Shown in pieces: positions 3,292 through 30,603 of a DNA stretch of 30,603 bases (the first letter of the stretch is position 1; the number at the start of each line of letters is the position of its first letter). The notes beneath the pieces are model-generated. The model was given only the letters and a program-made list of their open reading frames with translations. It did no database searches and had not been told where the DNA came from. The stretch is from a virus. The DNA lies in the IMG/VR virus record IMGVR_UViG_3300044961_001104, positions 1 to 30,603 of that record; one strand, 5' to 3'. The translations under genes were made by a program, and so were the position numbers.

Positions 3292-3688
3292 GATTGGTCA
3301 AAAATGCGTCAAATGCGGTGAGACCCTTCCCGCCGGCATGACGGCTTATAAATTGTCGGGTGAACACGGCAGCGGCTATGAGCATTATGGAAAATGTCGC
3401 GGTGTTGTTCGCGTGGAATCCGATGTCCGCAAGGAAGGATACAAAAGGGAGACCATCAACGATCTTCTCATCATCATCAAGGGTGGAAATATAAGCGAAC
3501 GGATCGATGCGTCGGAGGAGATCAGGCGGCGTTACTCTGACGCGCTGCACCACCTGGAGAAAATGACGTTCCAGGCAGAGGCGTGGCAAACGGATTTTGA
3601 AAGTCTCGCCAACGATCCAGAATACAAACCGTCTTATAACCGTGAAACGGTGGAATCCAGGGAATTCCTGAAAGGTATGGGGAAATAA
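3266..3688 (+). CDS. Putative zinc-binding protein (140 aa)
   Basis: ATG at 3266 is preceded by AAAGGAA (3254-3260); upstream in-frame starts would overlap the previous gene deeply. The N-terminal 45 residues contain KCVKCGETLPAG, then GYEHYGKC, a C-x2-C...H...C arrangement like a treble-clef or zinc-ribbon fold. The rest is helical and charged (ERIDASEEIRRRYSDALHHLEKM). Its catalytic function is unknown. The stop overlaps the next start (TAATG). Confidence 0.65.
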   Translation: MPRKRIQLEIGQKCVKCGETLPAGMTAYKLSGEHGSGYEHYGKCRGVVRVESDVRKEGYKRETINDLLIIIKGGNISERIDASEEIRRRYSDALHHLEKMTFQAEAWQTDFESLANDPEYKPSYNRETVESREFLKGMGK

Positions 3689-4014
3689 TGTGGCAGAAGA
3701 ATAAAGGGAAGTTTCATTTGCTGTTGCGCTTCAGTGCAGATCTTATTGATGGGAAATTTCTTCAGTCCGCTTGCGGCGATCAGATACAAGTGCGCCGGAA
3801 GGCACAGAGATCGTGGATCTGGGGCGAAGAGAAGATGTGTCCCATTTGCATGGGTATTTGGCGGCTTTGCTTTACATCGGTTGATGATGCAAGGCAATCG
3901 CTCAAGAATCAGACCAATATCAAAGTGCTGGAACGAGCCCTTGAGATTGCACGGCAGGCGACTTTGAAAAAAGCCATCGAGACGCGGATCAAAAAATTGA
4001 AGGGTAACTCATGA
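3688..4014 (+). CDS. Putative zinc-binding protein (108 aa)
   Basis: The gene begins on the last base of the preceding stop. The product has HLLLRFSAD and SACGDQI, then MCPICMGIW, then a lone Cys. This places His9, Cys29 and a C-x2-C at about 51-54 as a plausible zinc site. The C-terminal half is a basic amphipathic helix (LERALEIARQATLKKAIETRIKKLK). It is the second Cys-rich protein in a row, which suggests linked roles. Family not identified. Confidence 0.6.
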   Translation: MWQKNKGKFHLLLRFSADLIDGKFLQSACGDQIQVRRKAQRSWIWGEEKMCPICMGIWRLCFTSVDDARQSLKNQTNIKVLERALEIARQATLKKAIETRIKKLKGNS

Positions 4015-4855: not shown

Positions 4856-5064
4856 TGAACGCAAATTCCTTATCCGCCGGCGACATGATCTTGATCGCCG
4901 GTCCCTGCCTTGGCTTTATGGTCGTCATCATTGGCGTGAAACTCATGCGTTGGTTCCAGCTAATCAAGGACGCCCGGAACGAATGGAAGCGCCTTCCCAA
5001 GGCTGAAAGAGAGCGCATCAACCAGGAAGCCTGGGACAGCATGTTCAATCCGGACGATAAATAG
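4855..5064 (+). CDS. Small single-pass membrane protein (69 aa)
   Basis: It starts on the last base of the previous stop. Residues about 9-33 (GDMILIAGPCLGFMVVIIGVKL) form one membrane segment, followed by a basic, then charged cytoplasmic helix (KDARNEWKRLPKAERERINQEAW). It is the last gene before the convergent terminator at 5070-5123. Function is unknown; a membrane effector of the phage is possible. Confidence 0.65.
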   Translation: MNANSLSAGDMILIAGPCLGFMVVIIGVKLMRWFQLIKDARNEWKRLPKAERERINQEAWDSMFNPDDK

Positions 5065-5069
5065 TCCAG

Positions 5070-5123
5070 AACCAAAAAAGACCTATGGATTTATCCGAAT
5101 AAATCCATAGGTCTTTTTTGGTT
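5070..5123. terminator. Bidirectional terminator, perfect 25-bp inverted repeat
   Basis: The arms 5070-5094 and 5099-5123 are perfectly complementary, with a four-base CCGA loop. The stem has A6 on the left and T6 on the right, so it gives an intrinsic terminator in both directions. It lies between the ends of two convergent operons. The minus-strand stop codon (5122-5124) is inside the right arm. Confidence 0.9.
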
Positions 5124-6549
5124 ACACATTCGCGCTTTTCAGAGCATCGCTCAAAAACGCCTGGATTTCCTTATCCCGATCTCGCGCTTCCCACAACCGT
5201 CCAGCATGAAGCATCCGCCCGTCACGGATGGCAATGGGGGAGATATTCTCCTCGTCTTCGGTATATTCGATCACCGCAATGCCCTGCTGCCACTGCTGAT
5301 CCTTCTTGCTGCCAGGCACGCGCCCGTCGATGTGGCACACGCACCCTGGGCAGAATGCCGTGAAGATCAACTCCCCGTCGTGTGTCTGCAATCGTCGCGT
5401 CACCGATTCCCGTCGGTGGATGTGCCCGAAGATCGTTGTGAACGCCGTTTTATTGGCGATCGCTTTCGCCGTATCCCCCGGACCCGACCGCACCACGTCC
5501 CCGTGTGTGTTGTATACGTTCCGGTTCAACCAATAGCCATTGTCAGGATAACCGCTTACATAGTCCACGTTTAACGTATGTAGCGCCAGCAGGCGCGGCA
5601 CGCTCATCGATGGCGGCAGTTCCATCTCATCCACAGACTTCAGCCGATACGCCTGTTTCATGTTCTGCGCGATCAAGTTCGGCATCCGCAGGTCGTGGTT
5701 TCCTTCCAGTATCTTGACCTCCGCGCCCGGCTGTGCCATACGAAACTGGGTCAACCACCACGAAGTTTCCAATAATGCCGGCTGAGTCGTCCAATAGAAC
5801 TCCGGTTCCGGCATCCAGCGGTTTGACCACTCGCTCAGGTCCAGCCAATCACCGCCCAGCGCAATATGATCGATCTGTTCCTCCTGGCATATTTGCAATG
5901 CCAGGTCGAGCGCCCGCCGGTCATGAAAGGGGATCAGTTCGGTCGTGTGCAGTGTTCGTCGAAAACCGATCTGCGGATCGTTCACGATCAGTGCCCGCTT
6001 TACGCTTTTTTTATTGGCCTTTTTCACCTTGGGCAATTTTGGAAGATCGATCTGGATGGGGGAGATCACCGGCTCGAAAGCGATGGGCACTTTTCGTCTC
6101 AATGGCGCTTCGATGTAAATGCTTGGCACGACCTTCACGATTTCGTGGTCTTTGTCCTGCTTCAACTTCAGCGCCACGTCCCATTTTTTCACCTTCGGGT
6201 TGTGCACTACGAACTCCCCGTCTGTCCCGGTCAGGCGCATAAGATGCTCGACGGTCTTGATCTGGTCGAGCACCACCACCGAGCGGATCACGCCCTCGTT
6301 TCCCTCGACTTCGAATTCCAGTTCGTCCGTGTTTTCATCCCCGATCAACGCTTGGGTCTTCTTAACGCCCTTCGAGATGTCCTCAAAGGCTTGAAAACCA
6401 AACTCCCGCTCGAATCCAGACCTCAGCGAGGAGCGGTTCATGCCCAAAAGGCGCGCAAGGTCTGTGATCGTCTTCGCCTTCCCCTCGGCGATCAGTTCCA
6501 GCGACTTTTCCAGCAAGTCCGTGAAATCGTATCTATTACTGGGGGTCAT
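5122..6549 (-). CDS. Calcineurin-like metallophosphoesterase with N-terminal HTH
   Basis: This 475-residue protein has a helix-turn-helix-like N-terminus (residues about 27-45, TITDLARLLGMNRSSLRSGF). The phosphoesterase core starts at about 185: DPQ (191-193), GGDWLD (232-237), GNHD (283-286), THGD (348-351) and GHIH (375-378). These are the five metal-binding blocks of the family, except that the first reads D-x-Q instead of D-x-H. It is the last gene of the minus-strand transcript. Nuclease or phosphatase activity on nucleic acid is likely but the substrate is unknown. The HTH suggests DNA binding. Confidence 0.85.
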   Translation of the reverse strand: MTPSNRYDFTDLLEKSLELIAEGKAKTITDLARLLGMNRSSLRSGFEREFGFQAFEDISKGVKKTQALIGDENTDELEFEVEGNEGVIRSVVVLDQIKTVEHLMRLTGTDGEFVVHNPKVKKWDVALKLKQDKDHEIVKVVPSIYIEAPLRRKVPIAFEPVISPIQIDLPKLPKVKKANKKSVKRALIVNDPQIGFRRTLHTTELIPFHDRRALDLALQICQEEQIDHIALGGDWLDLSEWSNRWMPEPEFYWTTQPALLETSWWLTQFRMAQPGAEVKILEGNHDLRMPNLIAQNMKQAYRLKSVDEMELPPSMSVPRLLALHTLNVDYVSGYPDNGYWLNRNVYNTHGDVVRSGPGDTAKAIANKTAFTTIFGHIHRRESVTRRLQTHDGELIFTAFCPGCVCHIDGRVPGSKKDQQWQQGIAVIEYTEDEENISPIAIRDGRMLHAGRLWEARDRDKEIQAFLSDALKSANV

Positions 6550-8580: not shown

Positions 8581-8801
8581 CAGGCATCATTCCATTCATA
8601 GGGCGGCGCGTAAGTCGGCGGTTCCCCAGGGGTCATGCGCGGTCGGCTGGTGGGCTCGCTTGGAAGTGGTTGCGGCGTTTCCGTTTGTACGGCATCGTGG
8701 TTTGTTGGCATCACAGTTTCGATGGTCGCAAAAAAGGCCGTCGTCACAGCCACACCGAACAATGCAGCAATCATGCACAGGCAGATAATTCTCTTATCCA
8801 T
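8580..8801 (-). CDS. Small membrane protein with Pro-rich tail (73 aa)
   Basis: One hydrophobic segment (about residues 4-25) is followed by a Pro/Thr/Glu-rich extended tail (QTETPQPLPSEPTSRP...PPTYAPPYEW). The gene overlaps the upstream tail protein gene by eight bases and the downstream lectin gene by one, so it is co-translated with virion proteins. The topology suggests a membrane anchor with an outward extended arm. It could be a lysis accessory or a virion minor component. No family is recognised. Confidence 0.55.
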   Translation of the reverse strand: MDKRIICLCMIAALFGVAVTTAFFATIETVMPTNHDAVQTETPQPLPSEPTSRPRMTPGEPPTYAPPYEWNDA

Positions 8802-13678: not shown

Positions 13679-14244
13679 CTACTTCTTTCCTTGGTTCTGC
13701 TGGGCGATCTGGTACATCAGCAGCATCTTCTGGACATCCTCCTCGTCCAGTTCCGCGATCTCATCCGGATGCATTCCGACATAAATGTTCGTTTGCAGGA
13801 TGTAATCGATCCATTCCGGAGGAGGCGGGTTCTGTTCACCTCCATACAAGATGTGGTCCAGAACCCGCTCCTCTAGTTTTTTGCTTCGTCTCCCGCGTTC
13901 GGATAATTGCCGGCACAGCAGGTCAAAATGAACTGAACTTCTTCCGCTGTCATCTTGTCCAGGTCATCGCTATTTTTCGGAAGCGGCAGCGGGTTGCCGT
14001 TCTCGTCCTGCCAGTTCCAATCGAGAACGCCATTGAGGACAAGCTCCAACGTCAGGTCGGCTTCCTCTTTCAGCATCTCATCGATCTGCTCCACCGTCAG
14101 GTCGGCGCGCTCGCGCACATCACCAAACATGATGAAGCGCCTGGCTTTCTGCGCCGCACCATGTAAGATTCGGCGGAAAACCACATAGGAGCCTTCGCCC
14201 TGCAATTTGGGCGTCTCGATGCGCTTGTTCGTAATTCGCGGCAT
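13679..14244 (-). CDS. Tail assembly chaperone, -1 frameshift product (about 188 aa)
   Basis: Minus-strand AAAAAAC (plus positions 13876-13882) sits in the phase GCA-AAA-AAC, immediately before the TAG stop of the short form. A -1 slip there opens a second reading frame of 65 codons (LEERVLDHILYGG...PPPPEWIDY...MLLMYQIAQQN) that ends at the TAG at 13679-13681, exactly before the tape measure ATG. This is the gpG/gpGT arrangement of lambda-type phages, in which the extended form helps recruit tape measure and tail tube subunits. No independent start is needed for the second frame. Confidence 0.8.
13873..14244 (-). CDS. Tail assembly chaperone, short form (123 aa)
   Basis: The zero-frame product has a basic N-terminus, an acidic helical middle (LTVEQIDEMLKEEADLTLELVLNGVLDWNW) and ends at TAG right after the slippery heptamer. 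The location between tail tube and tape measure genes, with a frameshift extension, identifies it as the gpG-like chaperone despite no obvious sequence match. Such proteins bind tape measure during tail assembly and leave the mature virion. Confidence 0.8.
   Translation of the reverse strand: MPRITNKRIETPKLQGEGSYVVFRRILHGAAQKARRFIMFGDVRERADLTVEQIDEMLKEEADLTLELVLNGVLDWNWQDENGNPLPLPKNSDDLDKMTAEEVQFILTCCAGNYPNAGDEAKN
13876..13882 (-). promoter_or_regulatory. Programmed -1 ribosomal frameshift slippery site
   Basis: The heptamer A_AAA_AAC on the minus strand is read in the correct phase by the chaperone gene. It is followed directly by UAG, which favours pausing and slippage. The downstream frame is open for 65 codons. 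Confidence 0.8.
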
Positions 14245-17300: not shown

Positions 17301-18380
17301 TTAGCGCGCCAGGCTTGCAGGCACGCTGTATGTGCCGCCATTGGCGACTTCAAGGATGAAGCCGTTCAGACGGTTGACAACGCCCATGCCGAAGCGCCAC
17401 ATCCATTCACTCTTTTCGAGCGGGAACAGATCGGACTGTTTGATCAGGCGTAGATCGGAGGGGAGACCGGTCGAAGGCGGATCGATGCGCTTTTGCAGCG
17501 GCTTCTCGTACGAGGGCGCGAGGCTCAGCGAGTAGGTCGCCGGCAGATCAGCCCACTTTACGACCCAAACCCCATGCATACGACCGATTACCTTGCCGGG
17601 GACGCCGTCGGGAATGCCAACCAGGCGATCCGAAAGACCGCCGGGGACGATGCGCGGATCGTTGACTTCCTCGAACAGAGCAAGCCCTGAGACCTTGGCG
17701 ACCATGTCGGTGGAAATGAAGACCAGCCCGTCCACTTCATCGGGATAGCGGGCGACCAGCTTGTCGGCATGCCACTTGATCGGGTCATTGGAATCGCTGA
17801 TGCCGGAAACGGCATAACCCGCCTCGCCATAGTGCTGTGCTTCGGCGAGATCATCGGCGCCGGGCAGGGGCGGATAATATGTCCCGTCTTGGTTGGCAAG
17901 CGTTTTGATACTGAGCGTGCCGTTGACGATGTCATCGTAGTTGTAGGCGGTGTTATTAAAGAGCGCCTTGAGGATCTCCTTGCGCAGGGTCCTGCGGGCA
18001 GCGTTGCCAATCTCAACAACTTGGCGGTCCACATCTGCAATGGACGTGTATGCCATCTCAACAAACGAACCGCCGAGCGCGTCGCCGAATTGGAAGATGG
18101 GCAGCGCCACCATGTATTCGGCTTTGAACTTCTGCTCGGCAGCGCGAGCCATACCGCCCTGCGTCTGCAATTCGCGGTTGCCCGGCAGTCTGTAGGTCCA
18201 TTGGTGCTTGGTCGTGGTGGTTTCCACGAAAAGACCGGTGATACGGTTGAGACTTTCGTTCAGGCGGGCGCTGTATTCGTTGATCGCTTGAAAAACGGTT
18301 TCCTGACCGACTTCATTGACAAGAACACTGTCAGCGTCATCGATGTCCAGGATACCGGCGATTGTGGTAGGTGCTGGCAT
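17301..18380 (-). CDS. Major capsid protein
   Basis: The 359-residue protein follows scaffold and decoration genes, as usual. It has a helical N-arm (VFQAINEYSARLNESLNRI), an extended segment, a spine-like helix (DRQVVEIGNAARRTLRKEILKALF) and a C-terminal beta region (GVWVVKWADLPATYSLSLAPSY; MGVVNRLNGFILEVAN) in the order expected of an HK97-fold capsid protein. Direct motif evidence is limited; size, order and a nearby strong promoter support the call. Confidence 0.8.
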   Translation of the reverse strand: MPAPTTIAGILDIDDADSVLVNEVGQETVFQAINEYSARLNESLNRITGLFVETTTTKHQWTYRLPGNRELQTQGGMARAAEQKFKAEYMVALPIFQFGDALGGSFVEMAYTSIADVDRQVVEIGNAARRTLRKEILKALFNNTAYNYDDIVNGTLSIKTLANQDGTYYPPLPGADDLAEAQHYGEAGYAVSGISDSNDPIKWHADKLVARYPDEVDGLVFISTDMVAKVSGLALFEEVNDPRIVPGGLSDRLVGIPDGVPGKVIGRMHGVWVVKWADLPATYSLSLAPSYEKPLQKRIDPPSTGLPSDLRLIKQSDLFPLEKSEWMWRFGMGVVNRLNGFILEVANGGTYSVPASLAR

Positions 18381-18382
18381 GG

Positions 18383-18820
18383 TTATTCTCCTTCGCCTTC
18401 AGGCTCAACGAACTGGGTGATCCAGTCGAATTCGACATAAAGGATCTTGGTCAGGCTGTCGTTGGTAAAAACCGAAACACGCCCGCACGGAACCGGAACG
18501 GTCCCAGCCGCGGTGTCGAGTTTTCCAACGGTATCGCTCAGGAAGACCTGGGCATCATAGGCAAGCCCGGAAATGTCGAAGCCTCCCAGGTAACCGCGCT
18601 TCATGACAGAAACGGTGTTTCCCTGGCGCTTCACAACGATGCCGCGCGCCTGCTCCTTGCCTGTATCATTTGCATCCGCCTTGGCGGCTTTGCCGGCGGA
18701 ATTCACATACACAACATCGCCGACTTCCAGTTCCTCCGCGATGCGAAAATCGCGGATCTCTGCGGTCTCGGCGAAGACCACGTTCAAATTACGGGTGCTA
18801 TCAAGAGCAACAACGGTCAT
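18383..18820 (-). CDS. Capsid decoration-like protein (145 aa)
   Basis: The beta-rich protein (LEVGDVVYVNSAGKAAKADAND, ARGIVVKRQGNTVSVMKRGYLGGFDISG, YDAQVFLSDTVGKLDT) has the short-barrel pattern with a GDVVYV strand and VFLS..VGKL seen in small decoration or cement proteins (DUF2190-like). It lies between scaffold and capsid genes. A binding role on the capsid surface is inferred. Confidence 0.65.
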   Translation of the reverse strand: MTVVALDSTRNLNVVFAETAEIRDFRIAEELEVGDVVYVNSAGKAAKADANDTGKEQARGIVVKRQGNTVSVMKRGYLGGFDISGLAYDAQVFLSDTVGKLDTAAGTVPVPCGRVSVFTNDSLTKILYVEFDWITQFVEPEGEGE

Positions 18821-18836: not shown

Positions 18837-19583
18837 TTAGAGTGATTCAAAAATTGGTTTATCGTCCTCGTCGTCTTCACGACGGCGCGAGCCGGACGAC
18901 TTGAATTTGGATTTGGTCTTTTGCTCAGGGGGCGTACCCTTGAACTTTTCGGTATTGGTCATCCTGCCTTCTTCAAGCAGGAACGGTTTGGCTTTTGCCA
19001 GAGCGTTGAGCGCTTCTGGAACACCTGTGACCTTGCCGTCCTCATCCATCGTGATATTCGACCCGCTCGCTTCGAGCAGAATGACAACAGCGTCGAGCGC
19101 ATCCTCGCGGAATGCGGGGCGGACAACCTTGCCATCATCGCTCTTGGCTTCCCTGCCGGCTGCGACCTTGATCTCCGTGTGGATGATGCGTTTCTGCATC
19201 GCTTCCATCGCGGTTTTATGGTCGGTTTCCAGCTTGTCAGCCTTCTCCTGCGCCTTCTTCGCTTCGTCCTGCGCCTTATCAAGCGCGGACTTCTGCGCGT
19301 CCTCGGCTTCCTTCTTCGCCTTCACGTAAGCGTCGAACTCTTCCTGGTCCTTTACGCCCAGGGCTTCCCACAATCGCTTGCGTTCAGCTTCCTCGGCGCG
19401 CTTGGCGCGTTCGGCAAACTTTTTGTTCAGTTCGGCTTGCCGTTTCTTTTTCTCGTCGTCTCCGGCGTTACCCTCGCCTTCAGGTGTGTCATCGCCTTCT
19501 TCCTCGGTTTCAGCAGTGGAAGAGCCTCCGCCTTCATCCGGTCCAAAGACAAAAATGGGTTGACGAGTTATGTAAGAAAACAT
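18837..19583 (-). CDS. Capsid scaffolding protein
   Basis: The 248-residue protein has an acidic Gly/Ser-rich N-terminus, a long charged coiled coil (residues about 45-140, KKKRQAELNKKFAERAKRAEEAERKR), a DUF4355/gp20-like C-terminal part (PAFREDALDAVVILLEASGS, then VTGVPEALNALAKAKPFLL) and a basic-acidic tail. This is the standard make-up of scaffolding proteins of siphoviruses. It is the first gene after the promoter at 19727-19754 and the leader element at 19647-19707. Confidence 0.8.
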   Translation of the reverse strand: MFSYITRQPIFVFGPDEGGGSSTAETEEEGDDTPEGEGNAGDDEKKKRQAELNKKFAERAKRAEEAERKRLWEALGVKDQEEFDAYVKAKKEAEDAQKSALDKAQDEAKKAQEKADKLETDHKTAMEAMQKRIIHTEIKVAAGREAKSDDGKVVRPAFREDALDAVVILLEASGSNITMDEDGKVTGVPEALNALAKAKPFLLEEGRMTNTEKFKGTPPEQKTKSKFKSSGSRRREDDEDDKPIFESL

Positions 19584-19646: not shown

Positions 19647-19707
19647 AACCGGGGCAGCGAACCCTGAAAAAGGTTCACTGCCCCGGAAGTCTGTGTCTCG
19701 GTCGGGC
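19647..19707 (-). ncRNA. Repeated 61-nt leader RNA element, copy A
   Basis: The element is 59/61 identical to 24726-24786. Read on the minus strand, CCGGGGCAGUGAACCU pairs with GGGUUCGCUGCCCCGG in a 16-bp hairpin, preceded by a constant GCCCGACCGAGACACAGACUU. It starts about 13 nt after the predicted transcription start and precedes the scaffold gene. The two differences from copy B keep the pairs (G-C against G-U, and U-G against C-G). A U-run after it is short (UUUU). An antitermination, attenuation or RNA-stability function is inferred. Confidence 0.7.
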
Positions 19708-19726
19708 GTATTTAGTTGACTTGGCT

Positions 19727-19754
19727 ATGATAGCACAAATATTCTGTTTGTCAA
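19727..19754 (-). promoter_or_regulatory. Sigma70-type promoter for scaffold/capsid genes
   Basis: On the minus strand TTGACA (plus 19749-19754), a 16-base spacer and TATCAT (plus 19727-19732). The -35 is a perfect consensus, the -10 matches five of six. It begins right at the stop of the head morphogenesis gene and drives the scaffold-capsid block. Confidence 0.75.
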
Positions 19755-20615
19755 TTAAAACGCATTTGCAGGGTCGCGGTCGGGAGAATTTCCTTTGGCG
19801 CGCTGATCAAGAAAATAACGCGCTCCGTCCTGCATCTTTGCGGTGATGCCATCATCGAACTCAGCCAGATACAACACTCCCGAAGTCCGGCAATACCAAT
19901 GAAAACCCGGCCAGTCCACATAATCGGCAAAGCGGGGAGTACCAGTCAGCCAGAACGGTTTGTGCATTGGCTGAACCTGCCCATGTACCCGCAGACAGCA
20001 ATCCGTTGTCCGCATATCCAAGGCTGCCACTGCCTGCTTCTGAAAATCCAAACCGCCGGAATAATAGCCGGTCCACCAATCGAAGGCATCCCAAAGCAAG
20101 CCGGTCATCCAGAACACGATCAACCCGCCAAGCTCTCCGCCGGAACCAAGGAAGCCCGAACGATCGTCATCGCCGAGTATCTCCTCGTCGTCCGAATTCA
20201 TCAACACCATCGTCCGAATTCCAGCCCGCTTTTTATCCACGTCCGCAAGCACAGCATCCAAAGCGCTTTGGGATTTTTCAGATAACATCATAGAAACTTG
20301 CGCCGGATCGGGAGACACGATCCCATAAAAACGCATCTGACGCGCGCTTTCCTCCGCGCCGGCTTCCTGCGCCTTCGAGAAGATCGCCGCGGTCTCCCTA
20401 CGCACGGTTTCCCGGAACTGGAGCATTACATCATCAACTGCTGCCAGCGGGATGTGCTCCTGCAATGCGGACTGTAATGCCCGCCTTGTATTCCGGAAGG
20501 CGGTCGTCACGAACCCGCGCGGATGCGCGCGAGTCCCGACGTCTGCGATCAGGTCGCCGATGGTGTCATTCGCCTTGACGCCCGAGCGGACGGATTGTTT
20601 CAACGGATTAGGCAT
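19755..20615 (-). CDS. Head morphogenesis protein (SPP1 gp7 / Mu gpF-like)
   Basis: The 286-residue protein has a helical N-terminal half. The C-terminal half has the family signature: FQKQAVAALDMRTTDCCLRVHGQVQPM, then FADYVDWPGFHWYCRTSG, equivalent to the conserved D.RTT..CR..HG.. and the later H..CRs segment. Such minor head proteins bind the portal and help DNA retention or ejection. It follows the portal gene, the normal order. Confidence 0.8.
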   Translation of the reverse strand: MPNPLKQSVRSGVKANDTIGDLIADVGTRAHPRGFVTTAFRNTRRALQSALQEHIPLAAVDDVMLQFRETVRRETAAIFSKAQEAGAEESARQMRFYGIVSPDPAQVSMMLSEKSQSALDAVLADVDKKRAGIRTMVLMNSDDEEILGDDDRSGFLGSGGELGGLIVFWMTGLLWDAFDWWTGYYSGGLDFQKQAVAALDMRTTDCCLRVHGQVQPMHKPFWLTGTPRFADYVDWPGFHWYCRTSGVLYLAEFDDGITAKMQDGARYFLDQRAKGNSPDRDPANAF

Positions 20616-20633
20616 TCTGTCTCACGAACCGTA

Positions 20634-22229
20634 TTATTGGTCATTCTGCCGGCGCCCAAATCGATTGGTCTGCGGCGGAAGCCGGCTTCCCTCCATGGCT
20701 GATTCCAATGCCGCCATGTGTGCTTGATACTCGGGAGAGTTTTTCACCTTGGCGATTTGATCTTCGGTCCATCCCTGCTGTTCCAAATAAACCAGCATAG
20801 GAATGCCGAACGATTTGGCTGCCTTTGCCACCGTCCAGAATTCCTTATCGCGTTCCAGGTCATCCATCGGGTCTTTGCTGAAGACCGGCCGGTCTCCAAT
20901 GGTGTGATCCAGCGCGCCCGCGTAATAACTTTCCAGTGTGATTCCATCGAAACCGTCGTACCCGCGCCAGCCGCCGATGGACATTGCCATTTGTTGCGCG
21001 CGGACAAGGGCATCGTCATAGTTCGGGCGGCGCTGCAAGACCTTGTCCTCTGCGGGTCCGCGGTTGATACGCAGCGCCCTCCCGCTGATCTCGCCTTTCA
21101 CATTGTGCATGTCCGCATTGAGTTCGGGATAATCCCGCTCGATGTCGGAAAGGATGTCCTTGATATAACTTGCGGCATCTGCAATGGAAATATCGGCTAC
21201 CAGGGCTTTTGCATCTGAGCCAGCCGGACCATACAAGGCAGGTACTTCCTCCCGGCTTGGTTGGGGATTACCACTGGTGCTTTCCTCTCCTTGCACCTTG
21301 GGCTGTCTGGTCGGCTTGTTGACGCCCGAGAACAGGAAGGGCGGATCGACATACTTGCGTACCTGGTCTGATAGTTTGCTTGCCAAGTCATCCACCTCGC
21401 GGAACTTTGGCAGACCGGACAACAACTCCGAGAAGCCCCAATCAAGTCCAACATCATTGTGCTGCAGCACGACCATCGGAACAAAGCCGTAAGGCACTCT
21501 CCATTCTGCGCTGTCGTCATCCCAGGCATACAGCTTGTCGTTGAGATAGGTTTGATAATAGACGTTATCGTCACCCTTTTCACGGAACGCGATCTCGCGA
21601 TACAAGACCTTTCCGTCGCCGCGTCCGGGACGTGGGTCTTGGCGCATTTCCTCGATCACATACCCCTTTACGTTCCCACGTGAATCGAGCGTCAATTCCG
21701 CCAGCACGGACGGTTGGATGGGTTTCAAATAAACCCGCCCTTCATCCGGCTTGTCCATGATCTTGATCACACCATCCCCCATGATTGGTGTCCAAAGTGA
21801 CAGAACATCCTTTTTGATCTGCCAATTCGACCATCTCCATATCTGCGAAATGGCTCGGCGCAGCATGTCATTCTCCGTGATGATCGGAAGCGCCGACCGC
21901 GTCTCCGATCCATCTCCTGCATCCTTGTCGAGCTTGCCGCCGAGCAGGTGTCCCTTCCAGAATTCGCCCAAACGATAGGCGGGATTGTAGACGCCGCGCG
22001 TATGACGATACATCCCATAATCAGATTTATATTTTTGAGAGAACAGGTGTATCTTGGAGTAGGCATTATTTTCATACATTGCCCACATGATCGCATAGCG
22101 GAGTTTGCGCGCCTCGAAATCCGTAAAGTTGCTGTCATCCAGCAAATTCACGCCCATCATGCGCTCTTGAAAAGCCTTGTATCCTGCCATCGTAGCACTC
22201 CATAGTCGTGTAAAGAAATTATCGTTCAT
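20634..22229 (-). CDS. Portal protein
   Basis: The 531-residue protein lies directly after the large terminase gene and before the head morphogenesis gene. Portal-like features are the N-terminal region (FEARKLRYAIMWAMYENNAYSK), WRWSNWQIKKDVLSLWTPIMGDG, a WRVPYGFVPMVVLQHND strand, and a long helix (FREVDDLASKLSDQVRKYV) like the portal stem region. It forms the dodecameric vertex ring through which DNA is pumped. Confidence 0.8.
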   Translation of the reverse strand: MNDNFFTRLWSATMAGYKAFQERMMGVNLLDDSNFTDFEARKLRYAIMWAMYENNAYSKIHLFSQKYKSDYGMYRHTRGVYNPAYRLGEFWKGHLLGGKLDKDAGDGSETRSALPIITENDMLRRAISQIWRWSNWQIKKDVLSLWTPIMGDGVIKIMDKPDEGRVYLKPIQPSVLAELTLDSRGNVKGYVIEEMRQDPRPGRGDGKVLYREIAFREKGDDNVYYQTYLNDKLYAWDDDSAEWRVPYGFVPMVVLQHNDVGLDWGFSELLSGLPKFREVDDLASKLSDQVRKYVDPPFLFSGVNKPTRQPKVQGEESTSGNPQPSREEVPALYGPAGSDAKALVADISIADAASYIKDILSDIERDYPELNADMHNVKGEISGRALRINRGPAEDKVLQRRPNYDDALVRAQQMAMSIGGWRGYDGFDGITLESYYAGALDHTIGDRPVFSKDPMDDLERDKEFWTVAKAAKSFGIPMLVYLEQQGWTEDQIAKVKNSPEYQAHMAALESAMEGSRLPPQTNRFGRRQNDQ

Positions 22230-22236
22230 GTTTCCT

Positions 22237-23697
22237 CTACGTTGTTCCGCGATACCCTGAAAGCGGGTTATCGCTCAATACCGTTGTGGTCATGCCATCA
22301 TCCTTGCCAGCCCAGATCGCCAGAGCCCACGCCCAGAACATGTCGGCATGATGCTTCTCGTTTTCAGCCGTGTCATACACCGAGTTCTTCGCCGCCGTGA
22401 CCTTTCGCCTTATCGAGTGGATCTGATAAGAGAGATCGCGATCGAGCGGGATCGGAACTTCGCCCCGCTGCGCCCGCAGTTTTGCCTCCACAGCCCAGAG
22501 TTCCTTTGTCTCGTTCGTAAACGTCACGCCTTCGGCGTTCGGGTGCTCGGCGGATAGTTTCTCCGCCATCTGCATTCCGATCCCGTTGCGGTCGATCAGG
22601 AAGCGTATGATTGGGAGTGTGTTCAACATGCGGGACGCAACGGCTTTTTGCTCCTCGAACTCCACGCGTTCCAATGTGACGTGGAAACGATAAGGCAATT
22701 GGTTCACGTATGAGTCTTTTCCGAGCAGTATGATCTCGGTCGTATCACGTGTTCGTCCGATGTCCATTCCGCCGACAAATGCCTGCTCGATCTTCGAATC
22801 CACCACCGCGCGGGCAACGTTGTTTATGGTCTGCAATGCCTGGTCAACGCCTTTGGCACGGAAGTACAGGAGTTTCTCCTGCTGTGCCAGCAATTGATTG
22901 CGCTTGATCAGTTCCCAGTCGATCCACGAAACCGCCTCATCCAGCCAGGCGCATTCATATTCTTGCTGGAAATCCTCCAACGGCATATTCTCGTAAATCT
23001 GCCGAAGACGCTCTGTTCCAAATCCCCTCACCCGTTCATCCGTTGTCATGGCGGATGCCAACTGATTTGCTGTCTTTACGTCCCGGCTCATTGCGCCAAC
23101 GCTCCACCAGGGGATCGAAGCCCTGGCATAGCCTGGATACTTGCGCAGCGCCTCCGTGTAGATCTCCCAAAAGGTCCCGCGCGCGCCAAGGGGCGATGAA
23201 CCAATGCGGACGAATCCGCCCTTGGTGATGGCGGGCAGCGCCGACTGGTAGATTTCCTTGTCGCTGGGATAATGTGCAAACTCATCCAGATAGATGTGAG
23301 CCTTTGCCTTCCCGCGAACTGGTCGGCAGGGATGAGAGAGCAGGCGGCTACCGTTCTGAAATTCCAGTTCGTAGGCATTGTCCTTGATCAACTTCGGTCT
23401 CGCCTCCGTATCGAGCGCCTCGATCACCTGTTTGGCATACCGGATCTTTTCCGCAGCCTCCTCCTGGTTGATCGAGACAAAGATATGCGGCGTGCGCGGA
23501 TTCATACTGGCGGACGCAACCGCTTCCGCCGATGCCAGCCATGACCAGCCGACCTGGCGCGCCTTCAGTTCGATCGCAAGCAAGGATGTATTATTAAGGT
23601 GCTTTAACTGAAACGTCTCCCAGCTGGCATCGGGATCGCCGACCGCCTCCGGGAGATTCAGATACTCGATAAGAAAAGCAAGGGTGGGAGAGAGCAC
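22237..23697 (-). CDS. terL: Terminase large subunit
   Basis: The 486-residue protein has an ATPase domain with Walker A-like KARQVGWS (residues 46-52), Walker B IYLDEF (135-140) and coupling motif GSS (166-168). The RNase H-like nuclease domain has acidic residues in GGMDIGR (D312), LIDRNG (D369) and HHADMFW (D452). All essential residues of the DNA packaging motor are present. The overall form is closer to the Mu gp28-type terminases than to lambda gpA. It ends eight bases before the portal gene. Confidence 0.9.
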   Translation of the reverse strand: MLSPTLAFLIEYLNLPEAVGDPDASWETFQLKHLNNTSLLAIELKARQVGWSWLASAEAVASASMNPRTPHIFVSINQEEAAEKIRYAKQVIEALDTEARPKLIKDNAYELEFQNGSRLLSHPCRPVRGKAKAHIYLDEFAHYPSDKEIYQSALPAITKGGFVRIGSSPLGARGTFWEIYTEALRKYPGYARASIPWWSVGAMSRDVKTANQLASAMTTDERVRGFGTERLRQIYENMPLEDFQQEYECAWLDEAVSWIDWELIKRNQLLAQQEKLLYFRAKGVDQALQTINNVARAVVDSKIEQAFVGGMDIGRTRDTTEIILLGKDSYVNQLPYRFHVTLERVEFEEQKAVASRMLNTLPIIRFLIDRNGIGMQMAEKLSAEHPNAEGVTFTNETKELWAVEAKLRAQRGEVPIPLDRDLSYQIHSIRRKVTAAKNSVYDTAENEKHHADMFWAWALAIWAGKDDGMTTTVLSDNPLSGYRGTT

Positions 23698-23698
23698 A

Positions 23699-24085
23699 TT
23701 ATTTCATATTTCGGTTTATTCGCAGGGAATGCAGTTCGCTTTCCAGTTCGATGATCTTGAGCGCCTGGGTATCCGCCTGCACTGATAACTCCGCCACCTT
23801 TCGTTTTAGGGTAGCGTTCTCCTGGTTCTTTTCTTCCACCGAAATGATCAGCTTCTCCATCTCTCTCTCGAGCGCATACAACTTGTCGTACAACTTCTTC
23901 TCGCGCTCGGCGGCTTCATCCAGCATCTTGCGATAGATGTTGATCGCCTCCGCCTTCGCCTTTTCTGTGTTCGCCCGGTTGAGCTTAGAGACGACAAACC
24001 AACCGCCAATGGTCAAAAGGCTGGTTGCAAAAAAACCAAGAATATATTCAGTAAGCTGTAGGATCTGCTCGGGTGACCATTGCAT
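23699..24085 (-). CDS. Membrane protein with coiled coil, spanin-like topology (128 aa)
   Basis: One N-terminal membrane segment (about residues 11-34, TEYILGFFATSLLTIGGWFVVSKL) is followed by a long charged coiled coil (NTEKAKAEAINIYRKMLDEAAEREKKLYDK...LESELHSLRIN). This topology is that of an inner-membrane spanin or a LydA/holin-partner protein. It sits between the holin-like gene and the terminase and ends one base before the terminase start. No endolysin is adjacent. Function is inferred only from topology. Confidence 0.6.
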   Translation of the reverse strand: MQWSPEQILQLTEYILGFFATSLLTIGGWFVVSKLNRANTEKAKAEAINIYRKMLDEAAEREKKLYDKLYALEREMEKLIISVEEKNQENATLKRKVAELSVQADTQALKIIELESELHSLRINRNMK

Positions 24086-24108
24086 GATTCGGGTCCGCGG
24101 GGTGCGCA

Positions 24109-24135
24109 GGGTGCGCGGATTTTAACCGCGCACCC
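24109..24135. other. Hairpin between the holin-like and spanin-like genes
   Basis: GGGTGCGCGG (24109-24118) pairs with CCGCGCACCC (24126-24135) around ATTTTAA. No T-run follows on either strand, so it is not a standard terminator. It lies in the short gap between two minus-strand genes and may affect RNA stability or the next gene's translation, whose ribosome binding site is weak. Confidence 0.5.
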
Positions 24136-24159
24136 CGATATATCCAATCAAATTCTCTA

Positions 24160-24699
24160 CTAGCCGCTCTCGGTGAAACCGCTGAAATCCGGCTTGATAT
24201 CCGAGACTTCCACCATGACGCCCTCACCGGCTTTGCGTCCGGAGTTCGAGAATCCGATACCGGGCAATCCAGCCAGAACGCTTTCATGCCACTTGCGCGC
24301 CACGAGCAGATTGTAGGCAAGCGCAATGAAACTTGTGAGAATGGTGGCGGCAAGACCGGCATTTTCATCAATAACCGGGATCAGGTCGGCGCGGTTGGTA
24401 AGCTGCAAACCGACCAGAAGAACAGTTGTGATGGTCTGGGTGACGAGGGTCCAGGCGCTGGCGGAGCCGTCCGGGAACCAATCAGGCTTTACCTGCTTGC
24501 CGACGTTGATCAGCGCGGCGAACAGGAACGCGATGCCGGCGAGGTTCTTTCCGGTCTCGAACAGATCGGGAAGTGACGGGAGATCAGCCTCCTGCGTGGC
24601 AGGAACGACTTCCTGAGCCGCATAGGTTGCGGTCATGGGCGTGAATGCCAGTACGGCAAGCAGGAGAAAAACGAACAGAAACTTGGTCGAGCGATGCAT
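24160..24699 (-). CDS. Holin-like membrane protein with signal peptide (179 aa)
   Basis: The N-terminus is a signal peptide-like segment (KFLFVFLLLAVLAFTP) with an AxA-type cleavage site (ATYA-AQE). Three further membrane segments follow at about 53-68, 85-101 and 115-134. The AGGAG ribosome site precedes the ATG at 24699. It is the first gene after the promoter and leader element at 24726-24827 and stands before the spanin-like gene. A holin or pinholin role is possible but unproven. Confidence 0.55.
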   Translation of the reverse strand: MHRSTKFLFVFLLLAVLAFTPMTATYAAQEVVPATQEADLPSLPDLFETGKNLAGIAFLFAALINVGKQVKPDWFPDGSASAWTLVTQTITTVLLVGLQLTNRADLIPVIDENAGLAATILTSFIALAYNLLVARKWHESVLAGLPGIGFSNSGRKAGEGVMVEVSDIKPDFSGFTESG

Positions 24700-24725
24700 G
24701 GGTTACTCCTTTTGGGTTTAAATAG

Positions 24726-24786
24726 AACCGGGGCAGCAAACCCTGAAAAGGGTTCACTGCCCCGGAAGTCTGTGTCTCGGTCGGGC
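24726..24786 (-). ncRNA. Repeated 61-nt leader RNA element, copy B
   Basis: The element is 59/61 identical to 19647-19707. On the minus strand CCGGGGCAGUGAACCC pairs with GGGUUUGCUGCCCCGG (16 bp, with GU wobble pairs). It begins about 26 nt after the predicted transcription start and precedes the holin-like gene. The 3' flank differs from copy A (GGUUCUAUUUAAA), so only the element itself is conserved. Confidence 0.7.
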
Positions 24787-24818: not shown

Positions 24819-24827
24819 ATTATATCA
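24819..24827 (-). promoter_or_regulatory. Extended -10 promoter for the lysis-like/packaging genes
   Basis: On the minus strand TGATATAAT, a perfect extended -10 (TGnTATAAT), lies immediately after the stop codon of the 72-residue protein gene. No clear -35 box is seen upstream, which extended -10 promoters do not need. Confidence 0.65.
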
Positions 24828-25046
24828 CTACGTCTTTTTCTTTTCTACTTTCGGGCGGATTTTTACATGGAGATCGATCTCATGCACGTCGCCATCCCGC
24901 ATGGTAACTGTTACAGTGCCCCATCCTGTCCTGTTCCGGATCTCCATCAGGTAGCCCGCGATCTCAAGGATTTCCTGCCGGATGCACTCATCGACAAAGA
25001 TCGGTTTCTTGTCTTGGCTTAATTCATCTGTATTGTTCATGGTCAT
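24828..25046 (-). CDS. Small hypothetical protein (72 aa)
   Basis: The ATGA overlap with the stop of the upstream gene sets the start at 25046. The product has an acidic N-terminus, a helix (DECIRQEILEIAGYLMEIRN), two strands (WGTVTVTMRDGDVHEIDLHVKI) and a basic tail (RPKVEKKKT). It resembles small nucleic-acid binding or regulatory phage proteins but has no clear family. The stop codon touches the promoter that follows. Confidence 0.6.
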   Translation of the reverse strand: MTMNNTDELSQDKKPIFVDECIRQEILEIAGYLMEIRNRTGWGTVTVTMRDGDVHEIDLHVKIRPKVEKKKT

Positions 25047-25576
25047 GGTTTCAATGCTTCCACGATCATATCCTTGACCTGCTCCCATCGCTCATTTCTG
25101 ATCTGCTCGATGTCCTTCTTTACTTCCACTTCACCGCTCAAATTCACGTTCAGCGTTTCCGGCTTTCCGATCCCAGCCATTTTGTCCACGCGTTCCTGCG
25201 CTTGCAGGATGACCTTCAAATACTGGTCTGCTTTGTCGGGGTTCTCGATGGTCTTTTTCCAGGCGGCAGCCTGAACCCGCGTGTATGTTGCCAGGCTGTC
25301 TCCCATGAGACTTTCCAACTTTTCCAGAGCTGCGGCTTTCCAAAGATCGCGAACCCTGCGGATGTCGCGCTTTGCCGTCGCCAGTGAGACCTTGCGATCC
25401 TTGGCGATCTCCCATGCAGGTTTTCCGTCCAGCATGAGCTCCGCCACCAGCGCCAGACGTTTCAGGATCTCCGGATCATCCTGCCACGCAACGGACTTTT
25501 TGCCCTTGCGGGTACTCTTGGCGCCGCGCTTGGCGGGGTCGGGTAGTTCAACATTCGAAAATCCTGATCCTGTCAT
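25043..25576 (-). CDS. Small terminase-like HTH protein 2 (177 aa)
   Basis: A basic N-terminus (KRGAKSTRKGKKS) is followed by a helix-turn-helix (LMLDGKPAWEIAKDRKVSLATAKRDIRRVRDLW), a coiled region, and a C-terminal part ending KDIEQIRNERWEQVKDMIVEAL. The C-terminal segment resembles that of the upstream neighbour (IR-x-x-RWE-x-VK). HTH plus oligomerising helix upstream of terL is the plan of small terminase subunits. Which of the two neighbours acts as TerS is unknown. Confidence 0.65.
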   Translation of the reverse strand: MTGSGFSNVELPDPAKRGAKSTRKGKKSVAWQDDPEILKRLALVAELMLDGKPAWEIAKDRKVSLATAKRDIRRVRDLWKAAALEKLESLMGDSLATYTRVQAAAWKKTIENPDKADQYLKVILQAQERVDKMAGIGKPETLNVNLSGEVEVKKDIEQIRNERWEQVKDMIVEALKP

Positions 25577-29350: not shown

Positions 29351-29620
29351 TCACCTCTTCTTGATGGTTATCTTTTTCCCCGACGGCTGATCGGGGTCAT
29401 ATGAATGCGGTCCCTGGCGCGCAGCTTTCAGGATCTCCAGGGCGCGTTGTATGCGATTGTCCGCATAATTCAACGCATCCTTCAGGACGCGAATGATTCC
29501 CCAAAGAACAGAGATCACGTCCTCCAATGCGGCAATGGTCGAGTGTGTGTGTCGTTGTTGTGTGTGTTGGTCTCGAGGTGCCTTTTTTTTCTTGCTTTTT
29601 GGGCACGTCTTTTGTGTCAT
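29351..29620 (-). CDS. First gene of the minus-strand cluster, helical basic protein (89 aa)
   Basis: ATG at 29620 is preceded by AAAGGAG. The N-terminus is Lys/His-rich (KSKKKKAPRDQHTQQRHTH), followed by an amphipathic helix (AALEDVISVLWGIIRVLKDALNYADNRIQRALEILKAAR) and a basic tail. It may bind DNA. It is the promoter-proximal gene of the minus-strand cluster, diverging from the integrase. Confidence 0.65.
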   Translation of the reverse strand: MTQKTCPKSKKKKAPRDQHTQQRHTHSTIAALEDVISVLWGIIRVLKDALNYADNRIQRALEILKAARQGPHSYDPDQPSGKKITIKKR

Positions 29621-29709
29621 TTATTACTCCTTTCAATCCTTTTTTCTTTTTAAAATCGCCTGTTTGGGAAACGTTGGTTCCCGAAAAAAAATGTTACAGG
29701 AGAAGAACA
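29621..29709. promoter_or_regulatory. Divergent regulatory gap between the integrase and minus-strand genes
   Basis: The 89-base AT-rich gap contains GGGAA-ACGTTGG-TTCCC (about 29667-29684), a short inverted repeat that could be an operator, and T-rich tracts. Promoters for both directions are expected here, but no box pair is convincing. Confidence 0.35.
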
Positions 29710-30603
29710 ATGCAGTACCATAGACGTATGCGGAAATTCTTTTATCTTCCGCAAAGAACAAAACAGATGAAAAACTTACTCCTATCAAAAGCGATCGATG
29801 GTTTCGTTTTGGCATGCCTGGCGAGGAGACTTTCGCCGCATACGCTCGATGACTATCAGCGCACCTTGAAAAGGTTCCTCGACCACGTGGGCGACATGCC
29901 TATCAACCAGGTGAAAAGCACACAATTGACCGCCTTTTTAGCGTCCAGGAATGTCGGTAAAAAAACATTGTTGAATTACCACATTGCCCTCTCTGCTTTG
30001 TGGACGTGGGCATTGCGCGAGGGGTACGTGACCAGCCATATCGTCCGGACAGTGGATAAACCAAAACCAAGCAAGGTTGTGATTCAACCGTTCACGGATG
30101 TGGAGGTTAGGGCGCTTTTGCAGGCAATTCGATATGCGCCGGACCGGAACCGCGCTCTTATACTGGTTTTGCTGGATACGGGCGCGCGGGCATCTGAAAT
30201 ATGCAATCTGAAAAGGGATGACATTGACCTTGCATCGAGGCGGTTGAAGGTTGTCGGAAAAGGGGACAAGGAAAGGTTTTTACCGTTTTCCCCTCGCACT
30301 GCCTCCGCTTTGTTTTCCCACCTGGCAACAACGGACGGAGATCCGTTCAAAATGGGGCGCACCGGATTGGCTCAGTACCTGCGCCGGTTGGGAAAGCGAG
30401 CCGGCGTCAAAAACACACATCCGCATCGTTTTCGTCATACGATGGCTGTGACCTGGCTGCGCAACGGAGGCGACCCTTATACACTTCAGGAGGTCCTTGG
30501 GCACTCAACCATGGATATGGTCAAGAATTACATCGCATTGGCGCAGGTGGATCTGGATGAAGCCCATAAACGCGCCAGCCCGGTCGAAGGGTGGAAGTTG
30601 TAA
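29710..30603 (+). CDS. int: Tyrosine integrase (phage/XerCD type)
   Basis: ATG at 29710 has CAGGAG seven bases upstream. The 297-residue enzyme has an N-terminal SAM-like core-binding domain (residues about 20-110) and a catalytic domain with Arg160 (TGARASEIC), Lys184 (VGKGDKER), His239/Arg242 (HPHRFRH), His265 (LGHS) and the nucleophile Tyr274 (MVKNYIAL). The full catalytic set is present. It lacks the extra helix typical of integron integrases and an N-terminal arm-binding domain of lambda type, so it is closest to small phage or Xer-like recombinases. It would integrate the phage. Ends at the last base of the window. Confidence 0.9.
   Translation: MQYHRRMRKFFYLPQRTKQMKNLLLSKAIDGFVLACLARRLSPHTLDDYQRTLKRFLDHVGDMPINQVKSTQLTAFLASRNVGKKTLLNYHIALSALWTWALREGYVTSHIVRTVDKPKPSKVVIQPFTDVEVRALLQAIRYAPDRNRALILVLLDTGARASEICNLKRDDIDLASRRLKVVGKGDKERFLPFSPRTASALFSHLATTDGDPFKMGRTGLAQYLRRLGKRAGVKNTHPHRFRHTMAVTWLRNGGDPYTLQEVLGHSTMDMVKNYIALAQVDLDEAHKRASPVEGWKL

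Follow-up and report, generated by a model that had tools for sequence, protein, structure and literature searches.

A 61-nucleotide (nt) element is present twice in the virus record IMGVR_UViG_3300044961_001104 of IMG/VR, whose positions 1 to 30,603 form the window analysed here. Copy A is located at 19647-19707 and copy B at 24726-24786, both on the minus strand, and a sequence comparison gives an identity of 59/61; no third copy occurs within the 30.6-kb record. The window belongs to a phage or prophage and encodes a tyrosine integrase (29527-30603) together with packaging, head and tail genes. An initial annotation of this DNA had placed each copy behind a sigma70-type promoter and ahead of a late-gene block, and the repeat, its positions, its strand and this setting were all reproduced.

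All genes named in this paragraph are encoded on the minus strand. Copy A precedes the genes for the scaffold protein (18837-19583, the first behind this copy), a cement or decoration protein (18383-18820, weak match) and the probable major capsid protein (17301-18380), which lacks a Pfam match and is named from its place after the scaffold and cement genes and from homologues in relatives. Copy B is followed first by the gene for a holin-like membrane protein (24160-24699), with homologues behind the leader in loci L062 and L064, and then by those for the large terminase subunit (TerL, 22237-23697) and the portal protein (20634-22229, weak SPP1_portal match). A Mu F-like head protein is encoded at 19755-20615. 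Directly upstream of copy B, a gene at 24828-25088 encodes a small alpha-beta-beta protein of 86 aa, a candidate antiterminator on account of its linkage to the leader, its predicted fold and its link to DUF2292.

The closest bacterial-genome match of the window is an Anaerolineales metagenome-assembled genome (TerL, 83%), and the cultured strain Ornatilinea apprima P3M-1 harbours a related prophage with two leaders (L036). The similarity to named phages is low, with a best TerL identity of about 34%. As the host group is placed via such relatives, the viruses appear to infect Anaerolineae (Chloroflexota). An exact-match scan of IMG/VR using the window sequence returned no match, and the portal protein used as bait recovered one relative.

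The promoter of copy A, TTGACA-16-TATCAT, is located at 19754-19727 and shows 11/12 matches. The promoter of copy B (24819-24847) has an extended -10 element, TGATATAAT, which ends at 24819, and a weak -35 element. The distance from the -10 element to the 61-nt element is 19 nt in copy A and 32 nt in copy B, and the flanks are unrelated; the element is therefore the conserved unit. Its proposed selection as a unit is also borne out by the relatives, which have it behind promoters with compensatory changes.

On folding, each copy forms a single hairpin on the minus strand (19649-19686 and 24728-24765) with energies of -33.8 and -33.7 kcal/mol and a z of about -5.4 against shuffled sequences. 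The hairpin thus stands as first described, and its length is corrected from 16 to 17 bp. Both base differences between the copies preserve the pairing, as had been claimed, with C-G changing to U-G at the loop end and G-U to G-C inside the stem. A T-rich tail follows both hairpins, and a terminator scan lists both as terminator-like.

The 5' part of the element is complementary to the 5' arm of the hairpin stem. The box GCCC (19704-19707 in copy A, 24783-24786 in copy B) forms the 5' strand of a helix, here termed P1, and the arm GGGC (19680-19683 and 24759-24762) forms its 3' strand while also lying in the 5' arm of the terminator-like hairpin; box and arm were assigned by their covariation. 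The annotation had described the 5' part as free of the stem and possibly able to bind a protein or a second RNA. It is not free, and the guess of a partner came near the mark, the partner being the hairpin's own 5' arm. The 5' part probably presents a bulge and a loop for protein binding.

A leader family with two covarying stems

Terminase relatives show repeats of like design, in which a promoter is followed by constant sequence, a terminator-like hairpin, a U-tract and a gene. Pairs of promoter and terminator number 43 on the terminase strand versus 13 on the opposite strand, duplicates counted. The search proceeded from these relatives to a motif search and then to a covariance model for which 12 leaders served as training set and the terminator stem as sole structure. 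About 20 related elements of Anaerolineae (phages, prophages and islands) were found to carry the leader, with up to four copies per genome. Members identified by motif or covariance model are L003/L138, L035 (L165)/L170, L036 (a and b), L044 (a and b, L171/L167), L062, L080 (three strong copies and one degenerate), L020, L015/L143, L032 and L064 (two copies each), L034, L120 (identical in three genomes), L183 and the islands L182, L187 and L189. The covariance-model search of related genomes, which the annotation had suggested, thus located leaders behind promoters with compensatory changes in their stems.

The genes behind the leaders are mostly packaging and scaffold or capsid genes and include holin-like/TerL, TerS-like, scaffold and capsid, prohead-protease-like and lysozyme-like genes, several of these names being our own reading of the sequences. 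The earlier idea of a cis-acting RNA leader common to late-gene blocks holds in so far as relatives carry the leader behind the promoters of the same blocks. Its orientation relative to the gene is fixed. The distance from hairpin to start codon ranges from 7 to more than 60 nt, and in L036a the start codon follows the hairpin closely. Among relatives, the hairpin varies freely in its loop and upper stem, and in most of them a U-tract follows.

Only 12 of 400 Anaerolineales genomes contain a match at E<=1e-4, some of these matches covering the hairpin alone, and the leader is therefore considered a rare feature of mobile elements rather than a household RNA. Host genomes without these elements have no leader copies. 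A fixed-pattern scan returned 24 stretches, of which one is a real leader (L120), and Rfam contains no family scoring above its gathering score for the element. The degenerate fourth leader of L080 (1905-1953) is located behind the small-protein gene described below, and its box and arm read GTCT:GGAC, with a change at an otherwise invariant pair.

Across the family, the first four bases read GCYY and can pair with an RRGC stretch of the terminator's 5' arm, which extends P1 beyond the window. All 48 of 48 cells of P1 are paired in the 12 aligned leaders, while slid controls reach at most 67%; the terminator helix is paired in 97.6% of cells. MAFFT alignments with misaligned 3' ends were excluded from the counting. 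Across 23 leaders, P1 shows 83/92 Watson-Crick pairs against a shuffled mean of 68.0, a value that none of 300,000 shuffles attained, and 91/92 pairs if G-U is counted. The first 18 leaders alone give a p of about 1e-5. Four main states of P1 occur, namely GCCC:GGGC, GCCT:AGGC, GCTC:GAGC and GCTT:AAGC. Compensatory changes are found inside single genomes: in the L003, L044 and L035 phages, copy 1 has GCCC:GGGC and copy 2 has GCCT:AGGC (pairs L003/L138, L171/L167 and L165/L170).

The upper fold consists of P2 (YG:CG), a bulged A and P3, whose pairs are G-C/U-A and then G-C/A-U/U-A/C-G, and it covaries as well. The second and most variable pair of P3 is formed in 20/23 leaders versus 12.9 in shuffled sequences (0/100,000 shuffles), and the first in 23/23 (60/100,000 shuffles). 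The bulged base is A in 21/23 leaders. The upper-stem register of L143 and L032 was set by hand.

The terminators of L020 and L036b contain an A-C mismatch at exactly those RRGC bases that pair perfectly with the box, and those of L062, L044b and L080a have a G-U there. The box-to-arm spacing is 16-20 nt, while the -10-to-box distance covers a range of 6-43 nt, a pattern that fits an RNA unit rather than a DNA site bound at the promoter. Folding of the nascent RNA yields the box-arm stem-loop in most leaders (about -4 to -10 kcal/mol), and folding of the complete leader yields the terminator (about -20 to -40 kcal/mol).

The small protein upstream of copy B

The 86-aa protein has relatives in other leader-bearing phages. 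A profile built from six family members was run over the 41,100 open frames of all loci and added L003, L044, L062, L020 and G013 (L220), the gene being located nearly always directly before a leader. Two further loci, L032 and L064, scored weakly and were not reached before the second iteration, so that their membership is less certain. With the six seeds and E<0.01, the protein is present at 8/11 leader-bearing terminase loci versus 0/80 leader-free ones, a fairer comparison than the Fisher p of 7e-11, which stems from a profile containing the members; neither is corrected for phylogeny. In L015 the protein gene lies outside the locus but on its contig; the contig of L034 ends near the expected gene site. 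A profile search of the 400 genomes revealed three new loci (L232, L233 and L234), each with a leader immediately behind the gene. These leaders comprise box, spacer, arm and terminator and had not been listed by the RNA model. On the strength of this linkage, the small protein is the likely trigger of the leader switch.

The family comprises proteins of 60-90 aa and is related to the uncharacterised DUF2292 (PF10055; the related NCBIfam name is OscA). The L233 protein exceeds the Pfam cut-off for DUF2292 (27.2 versus 22 bits, E 2.9e-6) and that of L220 is just below it; the window protein and most phage members match no family model in Pfam, PHROGs and NCBIfam scans. AlphaFold predicts a helix followed by a beta hairpin, with a confident core. 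Among the papers searched, those that mention DUF2292 do so in passing, and none assigning it an RNA role was found. A standard DUF2292 gene is absent from the one genome examined of Ornatilinea's genus.

Proposed late-operon attenuation and its alternatives

The 61-nt elements are probably attenuators of late operons, that is, terminator/antiterminator switches opened by a factor, most likely the small upstream protein. The RNA switch is well supported, and the leader family, the gene context, the covariation of both stems and the protein linkage are computed directly. We infer that the hairpin terminates transcription, that the stem-loop represents the 'on' state and that the small protein binds it.

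According to the proposed mechanism, RNA polymerase would start at the sigma70-type promoter and transcribe the box GCYY first, then 16-20 nt (usually GAC-YG-A-GN ... N'CCG), and finally RRGC within the 5' arm of the strong terminator stem. The nascent stem-loop would be built of the three helices P1 (GCYY:RRGC), P2 (YG:CG) and P3, with a bulge on the 5' side, usually GAC, between P1 and P2 and a single bulged A between P2 and P3. Unless this stem-loop is held, the 3' arm would displace P1, the terminator would form, and the late genes would stay off. A factor binding the stem-loop in time would keep RRGC from the terminator and allow read-through to the genes for packaging, head and lysis. 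The best candidate for this factor is the protein of 60-90 aa whose gene immediately precedes the first leader.

Several points weigh against this mechanism. With its 4 bp, P1 falls far short of the terminator in strength and a stabilising factor must be assumed, and the U-tracts are weaker in the two window copies than in relatives. Linkage of the protein with the leader does not demonstrate RNA binding, two protein loci (L235 and L241) have no leader behind the gene, and a fold search of the protein against PDB and BFVD gave no meaningful match. The shuffle statistics are inflated, because the leaders share kinship and are not independent. In addition, several of the 23 were located beside known copies or the protein gene, and there the box was placed with the help of the expected pairing.

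A host factor or a different phage protein might instead open the same RNA switch, with the small protein hitchhiking with the late module. This explanation is somewhat unlikely and draws on the two protein loci without a leader, on the fact that linkage is not function, and on three integrated islands of Anaerolineales genomes (L202-L204) that have the leader and no small protein by profile, nor any match to it at E<=0.01 in their genomes. It is opposed by a linkage that spans very divergent phages and predicted three unseen leaders, and by the lack of leader copies in element-free host genomes. Besides the leader, L202 encodes integrases, a CI-like repressor, a putative replication protein and a TerS homologue, and the ends of this island are tRNA-like by our own reading of the open frames. 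L203 and L204 combine the leader with integrase and DnaD-like replication genes. If these islands are satellites, the leader would let them answer a helper's late factor. A tentative extension of the attenuator proposal, which we would put just short of an even chance, is that the small DUF2292-like protein acts as an antiterminator by binding RNA and thereby opens several leader copies at once, and that the protein-less islands are satellites sensing their helper's late signal.

A translational or RNA-stability element, in which the 5' hairpin protects late mRNAs or binds a repressor and plays no role in termination, is improbable. Strong 5' hairpins can stabilise mRNA, the window tails are U-poor and the L036a hairpin closely precedes the start codon; against this stand the U-tracts of most relatives, covariation that involves a box outside the hairpin, and the wide variation in the distance to the start codon.

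The annotation had drawn an analogy to the put RNAs of phage HK022, which consist of two coexisting stem-loops and act at early promoters, where they need no dedicated protein to modify RNA polymerase (PMC9378689). Both are phage leader RNAs behind promoters, with two copies per genome, and are tied to termination control. The put stems form together in about 70 nt, whereas the window leader has one stable hairpin whose strand is shared by the 5' stem. Furthermore, put serves early genes, whereas packaging, head and lysis genes follow the window-type leader, which is accompanied by a candidate phage protein. The analogy therefore fails on the terminator-like hairpin, the mutually exclusive 5' stem, the late genes and the accompanying protein, and identity with put RNA was rejected on structure and gene class. 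A put-like RNA that makes polymerase ignore later terminators would fit a promoter-proximal element near the start of long operons, present twice per genome, and is nevertheless very improbable, given a hairpin that is itself terminator-like with a U-tract in nearly all relatives, a box and hairpin that compete for one strand, late instead of early genes, and a freely varying loop and upper stem.

A DNA operator or a mobile repeat duplicated at two promoters is the least credible explanation and was dismissed: relatives change the sequence of the stems yet preserve their pairing, even within a single genome (L003/L138, L080, L013), orientation to the gene is fixed and the promoter distance ranges over 6-43 nt, even though the near-identical window copies suggest recent copying or gene conversion and a GC-rich inverted repeat could bind a dimer.

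In phage lambda, the gene of the late regulator Q is located just upstream of the late promoter pR'. As in the Q/pR'/tR' arrangement, a terminator close behind the promoter would keep the late genes off until a factor acts (PMC6606751), the regulator being a candidate here. This order of candidate gene, promoter and terminator shortly behind is found in the window, L003, L035, L044, L062, L120, L233 and L234. Lambdoid Q binds promoter DNA and sigma-paused polymerase (PMC6606751), whereas here an RNA with covarying pairs is conserved and recurs at separate late promoters. The Pfam, PHROGs and NCBIfam scans revealed no homologue of Q. In lambdoid systems the DNA site for Q lies between the -35 and -10 elements and is joined by a -10-like pause site; the conserved unit of the leader is located downstream of its promoter, at varying distance.

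The RAT elements of BglG, SacY and LicT are stem-loops of about 30 nt that overlap and exclude the 5' arm of an intrinsic terminator. The leader resembles them in a stem-loop of similar size that overlaps the terminator 5' arm, as indicated by covariation of P1 and P3, and that is thought to be protein-held. RAT sequences and bulge patterns are unlike those of this leader. The candidate protein is of 60-90 aa instead of a CAT-RBD plus PRD, and the leader serves phage late operons in several copies per genome. As neither a CAT-RBD or PRD domain (in the small protein family and the part of the window frames scanned) nor a Q homologue was found, the leader is filed under neither system.

The timing of late genes is well understood in few enterobacterial phages and hardly at all in phages of Chloroflexota. 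The present analysis supplies a defined leader, an adjoining candidate regulator and precise compensatory mutations. If the proposal is right, it adds a late-antitermination design of an RNA switch and a tiny protein, and satellites that rely on the regulator of a helper could be found by means of it. It would constitute a new class of phage late-gene control and suggest a function for uncharacterised DUF2292-like proteins.

Other leaders and hairpins

L013 contains two leaders of like design and other sequence (8668-8781 and 14105-14219), with a constant leader and stems that differ yet remain paired. A 5-bp GGCAT:ATGCC pairing of box and arm is possible there, and no relative of the small protein was found in that locus. 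A second hairpin type occurs in the window (28030-27957, minus strand), L013 (7776-7815), L004 (minus strand), L031 (around 5105) and L161 (around 712), mostly at the start site of a TATAAT promoter, with differing stems and the loop TGCCCCCCTC. Its promoter in the window is a perfect TTGACA-16-TATAAT. Behind this hairpin, a second long stem (AAAGACCCCTT ... AAGGGGTCTTT) is located at 27950-27880 (minus strand), a region that could encode a small RNA.

In L039 (3762), L069 (5507) and L013 (minus strand, 4015), a small hairpin, a GGGTCA/GGGTTA-like stretch and a strong terminator are located behind promoters. In L015, a leader with two hairpins and GGAGGT at its end occurs four times (3596-3702, 3843-3958, 5014-5135 and 5827-5936); the copies precede short upstream genes and differ in their stems while keeping the pairing. 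Between convergent genes of the window, a perfect 25-bp inverted repeat at 5070-5123, with a 4-nt loop and T-runs on both strands, is probably a two-way terminator.

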